The notes beneath the pieces were generated by a model. It saw only the letters and a program-made list of their open reading frames with translations. It searched no databases and was not told the DNA's origin. Positions 17,780-20,839 of a stretch of DNA of 64,000 nucleotides are shown one piece after another. This DNA is from Chloroflexota bacterium. Its GTDB lineage: Bacteria; Chloroflexota; Chloroflexia; Chloroflexales; Herpetosiphonaceae. The stretch's first letter is position 1, and each line of letters starts with the position of its first letter. The position numbers and the translations under genes are program-made. The stretch spans positions 186,001-250,000 of the forward strand of contig JAIUOC010000007.1 in NCBI GenBank assembly GCA_020161265.1. The letters run 5' to 3'.

Positions 17780-18312
17780 GCCCTAATTGCTAGGCGGACA
17801 TAAAAGTAGCGATCGATTGATTATGTCAAATGAAATAACTACTATAAAAACTATTCAACCAAGCTTTCAGTAAATTGGCTTTTTAGCCAAGATTAAGCAC
17901 TTTAACCAAAGCTATCTAGGTAAATCTGCCAAATTCTTCGGTTGAAACGAGCCAAAACTTACCAATTTTAGCGACGCGTTTGGGCAATTTTACTAAATAG
18001 CAATTAGGCAGCTTATTTATGCAATCTGCACAAATCATACTCCTTTAAGATCGTGCAATTTGTTGATTCAAGCCTATATTTGGATCAGGTATGCTTGGAG
18101 CTAGATAAATTCTTAGCATCGTGTTAACACCCAGTTAGCAAAAAACGGTTTTTGATTGTACGTTTTGTACAAGTGTCCAGCAAAAACCAACTTCAACCAT
18201 TCAACACCCACAACCAACCGAGCACAACCAAACGATCCCCAGCGCTGCGGATCACGAGCGTTCAAGCAGTTCAGCGTCCGACATTCAGCACAAGTTAGGG
18301 AGACCGCGCAGC
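17780..18312. other. AT-rich gene-free stretch before the ammonium transporter
   Basis: No coding frame, tRNA or known RNA motif could be recognised. It holds two small perfect inverted repeats: TTGGCT-TTTT-AGCCAA at 17875-17890 and TTGTAC-N5-GTACAA at 18156-18172. The transporter start is preceded by GTTAGGGAGACCGCGCAGC. The region probably contains the amt promoter and a nitrogen-responsive site, but I could not identify a sigma-54, NtrC or GlnR consensus. Confidence 0.5.
18156..18172. promoter_or_regulatory. Candidate operator upstream of amt
   Basis: TTGTAC and GTACAA form a perfect inverted repeat around GTTTT, 141 bp upstream of the transporter start. The half-sites TGTAC/GTACA recall nitrogen regulators of the TnrA type, but the spacing is two bases short of that consensus, so the binding protein is unknown. 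Confidence 0.35.
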
Positions 18313-19548
18313 ATGGATATGATTAACGGGGCAGATACCGTTTGGGTGCTTCTCTCAGCCGCTTTGGTTATGTTGATGACCCCAGCCTTAGGCCTCTTTT
18401 ATGGTGGGATGGTTCGCCAGAAAAATGTGCTTTCAACCTTGATGCACAGCTTTTTTATGTTGGCCCTAATTAGTGTGCAATGGGTGCTGTTTGGCTATAG
18501 TTTGGCGTTTGGCCCTGATGTTGGCGGGGTAATCGGCAGCCTCGAATGGGCTGGCTTGCGCAATGTTGGCATCGAGCCAAACCCAACCTATGCGGCAACG
18601 ATTCCCCATCAAGCATTCATGGTTTATCAAATGATGTTTGCCGTGATCACCCCAGCTTTGATTTCAGGTGCTTTCGCTGAACGCAAGCGCTTCAAATCCT
18701 TTGTGATTTTCTCGCTGGCTTGGTCAACCCTAATTTATGCTCCAGTAGCTCACTGGGTTTGGGCTGATGGCGGTTGGTTGCGCTCGCTGGGAGCCTTGGA
18801 CTTTGCTGGTGGCACGGTCGTACACATCACCTCAGGGGTTTCGGCGCTGGTTTGTGCCTTGGTGCTTGGCCGTCGCTCAGGCTATGGCAAAGAAGCGATG
18901 GAGCCACACGACACGACCATGACCGTGATTGGCACAGCCTTATTATGGTTTGGCTGGTTTGGCTTCAATGCAGGTAGCTCGCTGGGTGCTGGTGGCTTGG
19001 CCGTTTCAGCCTTTGTCAACACCAACTCAGCCGCCGCCATGGCGATGCTGGCTTGGATGACCGCTGGCTGGATTCAACACAAACGCCCAAGCGTGCTTGG
19101 CGCTTCGGCTGGTGCAGTCGCTGGTTTGGTAGCAATCACGCCTGCCGCTGGCTTTGTTACTCCAATGGCCTCACTGATTATCGGCTTCTTAGCTGGTGGT
19201 ATCTGCTACTTCGTGGTCGAAAACTTGGTGCGTGGTCGAGTTGACGATGCGCTTGATGTCTTCGGCGTACACGGTGTAGGCGGGGTGTTGGGGGCAATTT
19301 TGGTTGGCGTATTCGCCACCAAGAGCATCAATCCTGCTGGTGCTGATGGCGTACTCTCGGGTAATTTCAGCCAACTTGGCGTACAAGCGCTCACGGTTGG
19401 GATTGTAGCAATCTATGCAGCAGGCATGACCTGGGGCATTCTCAAAGTCGTCGATCTCTTGTTTGGCATTCGGGTTAGTGAAGCCGAAGAAGAACAAGGC
19501 TTGGATAGCAGTCAACATGGCGAAGTGGCCTATCGGATGGGAATTTAG
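18313..19548 (+). CDS. amt: Ammonium transporter (Amt/MEP/Rh family)
   Basis: A 411-residue integral membrane protein with about eleven hydrophobic spans, normal length for the family. It starts MDMINGADTVWVLLSAALVM without an extra cleavable signal. The pore twin histidines are at H171 (TVVHITSGV) and H320 (DVFGVHGVGG), and the family signature DFAGGTVVHI is intact. It conducts ammonium/ammonia across the cytoplasmic membrane. No glnK (PII) gene follows; instead a 26-codon membrane peptide gene lies 27 bp downstream on the same transcript, ahead of a strong terminator. Confidence 0.97.
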   Translation: MDMINGADTVWVLLSAALVMLMTPALGLFYGGMVRQKNVLSTLMHSFFMLALISVQWVLFGYSLAFGPDVGGVIGSLEWAGLRNVGIEPNPTYAATIPHQAFMVYQMMFAVITPALISGAFAERKRFKSFVIFSLAWSTLIYAPVAHWVWADGGWLRSLGALDFAGGTVVHITSGVSALVCALVLGRRSGYGKEAMEPHDTTMTVIGTALLWFGWFGFNAGSSLGAGGLAVSAFVNTNSAAAMAMLAWMTAGWIQHKRPSVLGASAGAVAGLVAITPAAGFVTPMASLIIGFLAGGICYFVVENLVRGRVDDALDVFGVHGVGGVLGAILVGVFATKSINPAGADGVLSGNFSQLGVQALTVGIVAIYAAGMTWGILKVVDLLFGIRVSEAEEEQGLDSSQHGEVAYRMGI

Positions 19549-19575
19549 TCATCGTTATTGATAAGGAGTTACACC

Positions 19576-19656
19576 ATGGAATTTATCATTGCGTTGGTTT
19601 TGTTCGTAGCGTTGGTTGCCGTTTGGTTGCGCATGCCCCAAGGCGCTAAAGCCTAA
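19576..19656 (+). CDS. 26-residue single-span membrane peptide downstream of amt
   Basis: ATG at 19576 is preceded by AAGGAG at an ideal distance (AAGGAGTTACACC). The product is 26 residues: a hydrophobic stretch EFIIALVLFVALVAVWL then a short basic tail ending in GAKA. It lies between the transporter stop (19548) and a strong terminator (from 19669), so it is almost certainly on the amt mRNA. The good ribosome site and transmembrane character argue that it is translated. By position it may bind or tune the transporter, as other small proteins do for transporters, but no family is recognised. It is too short for routine gene callers. Confidence 0.65.
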   Translation: MEFIIALVLFVALVAVWLRMPQGAKA

Positions 19657-19668
19657 ATTACTCAACCA

Positions 19669-19707
19669 AATGCGGGCTATGGTTTCGACCATAGCCCGCA
19701 TTCTAGT
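19669..19707 (+). terminator. Rho-independent terminator of the amt operon
   Basis: AATGCGGGCTATGG (19669-19682) and CCATAGCCCGCATT (19689-19702) pair perfectly over 14 bp around TTTCGA, followed by CTAGTTT. It can act in both directions, serving also the convergent dus gene. Confidence 0.85.
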
Positions 19708-19750: not shown

Positions 19751-20839
19751 CTAATTATTTGCGCCGTTCTCACAGCCTTCTTTGATCACAGCGATTTCGT
19801 CGGGCACTTCGACCGCCTCAACCGCGCCGCTGATAAATGGCTCAAAAAAGTTGGCAATAATCGCTTTAGCGGCTTCAATTTCGTTGGCGCGTTGTACATC
19901 GCGGCGTAATTGGTTGCTAGCATACAAGCCGATGCTGAATTGGCCGATCAATTGTTTAAGTTTACCCAGCGCTTGGCGCTCAACCATGGTTTCGGCACAC
20001 ATATCAACATAGCGCACCAGCAAATCGCGCTTATCGCTTGGCGTTGGCACAAACATGGGTTCGCCTGCCCGCAATTGAGCAATTTGGCGAAAAATCCATG
20101 GATTAGCCATAGCAGCCCGACCAATCATTACTGCTGCAACCCCAGTTTGCTCCAAACGCGCCAAAGCATCAGCTGGGGTGCGCACATCGCCTGAGCCAAT
20201 TACTGGAATTGAGACGGCCTGAACCACCTCAGCAACCCGCGACCAATCGGCATCGCCGCTGTAGCCCTGCACTTTGGTGCGTGGATGCAAGGTAATTGCC
20301 GCACAACCAGCATCTTCAGCAATTTTAGCGGTATCAATATAATTTAGCGATTGCTCATCCCAGCCAGCCCGAAATTTGAGCGTAAACGGAATGTTGATCG
20401 CTGCATACACCGCTTTGAGCATTTGCTGCATTTTGGGTAAATCTTTGAGCAAAGCTGAGCCATGGCCGCCACCGGTAACTTTGGGCGAAGGACAGCCACA
20501 ATTTATGTCAATTACATCGGGGCCAAGTTCTTCAACAAAGCGGGCGGCGGTTGCCACTAAATCAGGGTCGTTGCCCGAAAGCTGAATCGAAATTGGCCGT
20601 TCTTCGGGCAGATAATCCAGCAAACGATGGCGTTTCATGGCCTTGGGCGAAACACTGGCAGCATTGGTCATCTCAGAAACAACCAAGCCACAGCCACCCA
20701 ACGACAACACCAACCGCCGAAAGACTGAATCGGTTACGCCAGCCATCGGGGCCAGCACCATGTTTGGAAAAATGCGCATTGAGCCAAGTTGAAATGATTC
20801 GGGCAATGCTTGGGTCAGAGTATCAGGCATAAGCTGCAT
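19751..20839 (-). CDS. dusB: tRNA-dihydrouridine synthase (DusB-like)
   Basis: A 362-residue FMN enzyme that reduces uridine in tRNA D-loops using NAD(P)H. The N-terminal FMN barrel starts MVLAPMAGVTDSVFRRL. The catalytic motif INCGCPSPKV (about residues 113-122) contains the family cysteine, and later FRAGWDE, LHPRTKVQGY and IGSGDVRTPADA give FMN phosphate and substrate contacts. Length and motifs fit the bacterial DusB group, with a C-terminal helical domain. No clear ribosome site precedes the ATG at 20839; an internal ATG three codons later is possible. It stands alone between the amt terminator and the acetyltransferase. Confidence 0.93.
   Translation of the reverse strand: MQLMPDTLTQALPESFQLGSMRIFPNMVLAPMAGVTDSVFRRLVLSLGGCGLVVSEMTNAASVSPKAMKRHRLLDYLPEERPISIQLSGNDPDLVATAARFVEELGPDVIDINCGCPSPKVTGGGHGSALLKDLPKMQQMLKAVYAAINIPFTLKFRAGWDEQSLNYIDTAKIAEDAGCAAITLHPRTKVQGYSGDADWSRVAEVVQAVSIPVIGSGDVRTPADALARLEQTGVAAVMIGRAAMANPWIFRQIAQLRAGEPMFVPTPSDKRDLLVRYVDMCAETMVERQALGKLKQLIGQFSIGLYASNQLRRDVQRANEIEAAKAIIANFFEPFISGAVEAVEVPDEIAVIKEGCENGANN

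Follow-up and report, generated by a model that had tools for sequence, protein, structure and literature searches.

The ammonium channel AmtB is blocked from the cytoplasm by the soluble trimer GlnK, which plugs its pore, and the same review describes the control of bacterial Amt proteins in terms of P-II only (PMC10710835). The small partners of transporters that it covers comprise AcrZ, MgtS, MgtR, LucB and others, with GlnK given for AmtB (PMC10710835). In Methanosarcina mazei, the AmtB1 small protein sP36 of 61 aa is reported to be cytoplasmic at low nitrogen and to move to the membrane; it also binds GlnK1 and mediates its binding (PMC10714827). Amt and Rh channels themselves have repeatedly been solved as one-protein trimers (28 distinct chains). 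Further one-helix partners of transporters are KdpF and MetS, and some partners of this type are encoded beside the transporter they serve. To our knowledge, sP36 is the only known small Amt protein besides P-II, and we know of no one-helix partner of an Amt.

The window, i.e., the whole stretch of 64,000 nucleotides of Chloroflexota DNA that was analysed (contig positions 186001-250000), which its sequence and setting point to as coming from the genus Herpetosiphon, carries on its forward strand an amt gene for an ammonium channel of 411 aa (18313-19548, stop codon TAG; PF00909, 1e-130), whose nearest solved structures are Amt-1 and AmtB. Separated from the amt stop by 27 nt and encoded on the same strand is a small membrane-protein gene (19576-19656, ATG at 19576, stop codon TAA at 19654-19656), the 26-residue product of which, MEFIIALVLFVALVAVWLRMPQGAKA, contains the hydrophobic span FIIALVLFVALVAVWL. 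Its ribosome binding site AAGGAG (19563-19568, forward strand), located 7 nt 5' of the ATG, is kept in relatives. The sequence agrees with the coordinates, frame, AAGGAG, ATG and hydrophobic span that a sequence-only reading had assigned to this ORF, as well as with its placement between the amt stop and a terminator: a 15-bp hairpin with a weak T-run lies at 19669-19702 of the forward strand (fold -33 kcal/mol, z -6.6 vs 200 shuffles) and probably serves the amt-peptide unit as a (bidirectional) terminator. The hairpin is absent from the output of a simple terminator scan, and a hairpin with altered pairs was read by eye at the same place in loci L003-L007. It sits between the unit and the convergent dus gene for tRNA-dihydrouridine synthase (19751-20839, reverse strand; PF01207, 6e-78), which is outside the unit and marks its boundary. 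A search of the DNA separating amt from the small ORF gave no promoter-like site, and therefore co-transcription of the two genes is likely. Rfam gave no match around the unit.

The genes for GlnK and GlnB likewise adjoin amt on the same strand, and their products would be the expected partner at the position taken here by the small ORF. The sequence-only reading had called glnK usual at that place in many bacteria. Of 80 named loci, 41 have a GlnK frame no more than 900 nt downstream of amt, including, by our tally, 38 of 72 outside Chloroflexota. In contrast to these soluble proteins, the members of the peptide family are membrane helices of 25-50 aa without sequence relation to them. Identity with GlnK/P-II was considered and rejected, PF00543 being absent among the matches of 21 family members up to an E value of 1. 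The peptide would share with sP36 the character of a small protein acting on an Amt, tied to a different nitrogen-control wiring, whereas the length and behaviour described for sP36 set the two apart: the peptide is predicted to reside permanently in the membrane as a helix and is encountered mostly in P-II-less genomes. In general architecture it resembles AcrZ, MgtS, LucB, KdpF and MetS (about 30-60 aa, one transmembrane helix, one transporter each), although no sequence relation to proteins of this kind was found in Pfam, NCBIfam or solved chains.

The conservation of the small ORF was assessed in close and distant relatives. Six congeneric species keep it with a pS of 0.43 vs a pN of 0.05 (15 pairs), and a wider set of 14 sequences over 22 codons, from which 7 of 21 members were omitted as not starting with ME or having other spacing, gave a pS of 0.61 vs a pN of 0.23. 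The small ORF is thus conserved as coding sequence, with purifying selection acting on it. In the window it happens to be in frame with amt, which would fit a frame open by chance or an extension of Amt by read-through, with no separate protein. This explanation is already contradicted by that selection and by the comparison of loci, and we consider it highly improbable. Among the 49 loci in which the peptide was detected by profile, the ORF takes different frames with respect to amt (23, 16 and 10 loci), a ribosome site of at least 4 bases is present in 48, with the start picked to maximise the site, and an ATG start in 47. The varying frame and the ribosome sites therefore indicate independent genes and not read-through tails of Amt. 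Furthermore, the profiles matched 48-51 of 180 sense regions behind amt, part of which had served to build the profiles, and none of 180 antisense and none of 180 shuffled control regions. Stops, frame changes or a missing ribosome site in relatives had been set beforehand as the outcome that would speak against the gene; the site was found in all but one of the loci mentioned above, and some relatives are without the peptide altogether.

The order-level survey located amt orthologues in 60 relatives, the downstream DNA of which was read, and revealed a homologous ORF behind amt in 18 of 28 readable loci. A profile built from 21 members (order-level relatives) and run over 331 Chloroflexota genomes irrespective of context returned 31 matches in 28 genomes, 27 of them directly behind an amt; outside the training genomes the proportion was 15 of 19 by our tally. 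A weak match in G008 corresponds to no small ORF of the peptide kind. An Amt of the window's type (E≤1e-120) was located in 103 genomes, of which 102 were classed and one (G310) was left out. The profile-detected peptide was present behind amt in 49 of these 102 genomes, spanning 20 families, with a median distance of 43 nt from the amt stop (at most 60 nt in 34 of 49 loci). The check proposed in the sequence-only reading, a look for the same short frame behind amt in other Chloroflexota, thereby gave a positive result at both the order and the phylum level. The remaining 53 genomes with the same type of Amt gave no profile match behind amt, four of these loci having less than 300 nt downstream; a looser rule recovered a similar short frame in four of the 53 (G104, G229, G292 and G336; family f27), which were added by eye to one count given below and not to the main count. 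Outside Chloroflexota, the profile matched none of 72 other amt loci, three of which had less than 100 nt downstream. In genus g6, all 8 readable loci carry the same Amt without the peptide. Therefore, in these loci and in the genomes without a profile match, Amt works without the peptide.

Four homologues stand apart from amt, two in genus g7 and one each in G175 and G082. Together with the relatives lacking the peptide, they speak against a strict requirement for it and suggest possible action in trans. The second, stand-alone peptide genes of genus g7 (L112 from about 4121, L113 from about 3942) have their own ribosome sites. Upstream of the window's amt, 157 nt 5' of its start, lies a perfect palindrome TTGTAC-N5-GTACAA (18156-18172; TTGTACGTTTTGTACAA), which is the sole exact copy in the 6.04-Mb genome. 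The six same-genus amt loci all retain it at 12 of 12 positions, located at -145 to -157, as does L016 at -174; the match is 11 of 12 in L011 and 10 of 12 upstream of both stand-alone peptide genes of g7. At two mismatches, 158 sites per strand were counted, below the backward-read control (303), and degenerate matches are therefore uninformative. The palindrome is a possible, perhaps dedicated, operator.

These lone copies bear on an alternative in which the peptide, a small membrane protein transcribed together with amt, does not act on Amt but has its role in another part of the nitrogen response or of the membrane. The two g7 genomes with separately equipped copies, each preceded by the palindrome-like site, and the further copies in G175 and G082 would fit such a role. 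However, lone copies make up 4 of the 31 profile matches, and the linkage to a single Amt clade over 20 families would be hard to explain without a connection to Amt, as would the tandem copies found behind amt in L026 (2819-3012), L137, L180, L181 and L190. We regard action away from Amt as rather unlikely, slightly more so than the regulatory role considered below. The tandem copies behind a single amt are diverged, a hint of hetero-pairs.

The family signature A-x3-F-x2-L-x3-W-x3-P places its residues on one helix face. Relative to the tryptophan at position 0 (68 of 71 sequences), alanine at -11 occurs in 54, phenylalanine at -7 in 58 and leucine, methionine or valine at -4 in 66; proline at +4 is present in all 71 by construction, as W and P served as alignment anchors, which A and F did not. 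Lysine and arginine in 67 peptides are distributed with 2 before the helix and 82 after it. With acids counted, the asymmetry is mixed, the C-terminal side being more positive in 34 peptides, less positive in 16 and equal in 17. From these features we infer an N-out/C-in topology, with the conserved side of the helix presumably facing protein. Behind the helix follows a short tail of variable sequence, and the peptide has no visible sensor.

The peptide family has no Pfam or NCBIfam model: when the 21 members of the first alignment were all searched, every match fell below the cut-offs (best FixQ, 0.0088, and FeoB_associated, 0.013). Membership in the FeoB-associated Cys-rich membrane proteins (PF12669) was rejected, since the window peptide reached 14 bits (E 0.06) vs the curated cut-off of 27 bits; 6 of 21 members match this model weakly (best 0.013), and the window peptide is without cysteine. 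Among solved chains, the peptide profile had no match at E≤1. For an AlphaFold model of Amt and peptide, the window's read-through chain was used with Q in place of the TAG stop, together with 43 further rows. In this model the peptide helix has a pLDDT of 81-90, and the 32-aa peptide frame alone reached up to 96; the helix thus scores no worse without Amt than next to it, and the model carries no information on docking. Foldseek and VIA-align matched the Amt part of the model to known Amt and Rh chains, the VIA-align rows spanning residues 1-411.

Comparison with the distribution of P-II revealed a pronounced association. P-II was absent (E≤1e-8) in 45 of 49 peptide genomes, and the peptide was absent in 26 of the 30 P-II genomes with the same type of Amt, four genomes having both and 27 of 102 having neither P-II nor the peptide by profile (Fisher p 7e-6 by genome, 0.012 by family). 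With the four looser-rule genomes added, the numbers with both, peptide alone, P-II alone and neither became 4/49/26/23 (p 3e-7). Genus g6 lacks both peptide and P-II. In the Amt tree (135 rows, two loci being in it twice), a single clade (SH-aLRT 98) takes in 45 of the 46 peptide-linked rows; it consists of 56 rows including 11 with neither partner seen and none linked to glnK. Of the independent pairs on this tree, 0.6 of 5 run in the opposite direction for glnK beside amt and 0 of 3 for P-II; because nearly all peptide Amts form one clade, replacement receives no independent-pair support. Repeated replacement of GlnK, strong in plain counts, was rejected as unsupported by these pairs. The association of the peptide with the absence of P-II is one historical event.

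In G086 (G086:C71:40443-42440), the order glnK-amt-peptide is encountered on one strand, the Amt branching just outside the peptide clade; the peptide is METVIALVSFIGLVAIWVVLPLRSSSEDVIS and its ribosome site is weak. In G316, the order is amt-glnK-peptide (L177, peptide frame at 831-926 with AAGGAGG). The units of both genomes hold GlnK as well as the peptide, and their peptides are closely similar. Stated carefully, a single Amt lineage was joined by the peptide, with GlnK alongside in at least two genomes, and P-II is missing from most genomes that carry the peptide. The sole P-II candidate in the window's own genome is divergent (25-26 bits) and encoded directly behind a Na+/H+ exchanger (L117 2838-3206); it may be a variant of P-II with a link to cation transport.

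The same data bear on a second alternative, in which the peptide is a regulator, an inhibitor or gate, in the role of GlnK where canonical P-II is absent. Such a regulator would shut or throttle Amt at rising ammonium via the membrane and not by plugging the pore from the cytoplasm. The near mutual exclusion in the counts above is in line with this possibility, as are the location of the peptide at the position of glnK in other phyla and the gene order of G086 together with the branching of its Amt just outside the peptide clade, which are those expected of an intermediate. Against it stand the origin of the association in one phylogenetic event, the presence of both P-II and peptide in four genomes, one of them with glnK between amt and the peptide, the 27 genomes with neither by profile, the short, variable tail and the lack of a visible sensor in the peptide. 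Hence, we consider a regulatory role unlikely, and the same doubt applies to the scenario in which a large branch of Chloroflexota lost the P-II/GlnK switch and the membrane peptide took over the control of Amt, with G086 and G316 as surviving intermediates.

In our judgment, the ORF is a real gene, and its product is probably an accessory subunit of the Amt trimer, dedicated to it and consisting of a single helix. Throughout the phylum the peptide is observed to be linked to one Amt clade, and one face of its helix is conserved; the family combines, as one-helix accessory proteins do, a short protein having a single hydrophobic helix with conserved linkage to the transporter gene. The small transporter partner suggested by the sequence-only reading is, in view of this linkage, the helix face and the purifying selection, the interpretation best supported by the sequence comparisons. 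The peptide would be made from the amt message and would insert in the N-out/C-in orientation, its conserved face packing against the lipid side of Amt with one copy, or two paralogues, per Amt subunit. By analogy with AcrZ, KdpF and MgtS and their transporters, the accessory subunit might stabilise the Amt trimer or tune its gating. It may have joined an Amt still having GlnK and remained once GlnK was lost.

The search of open-licence papers found no membrane peptide of Amt in Chloroflexota. The kind of protein is known, and a membrane-embedded Amt member spread over a phylum appears to be new within the literature searched. If the accessory subunit is real, the single-protein picture of Amt misses a part in these bacteria, and the peptide would offer a direct route to how P-II-less bacteria avoid futile ammonium cycling. 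If the less probable takeover of Amt control were true, it would represent a second, unrelated way of regulating Amt.
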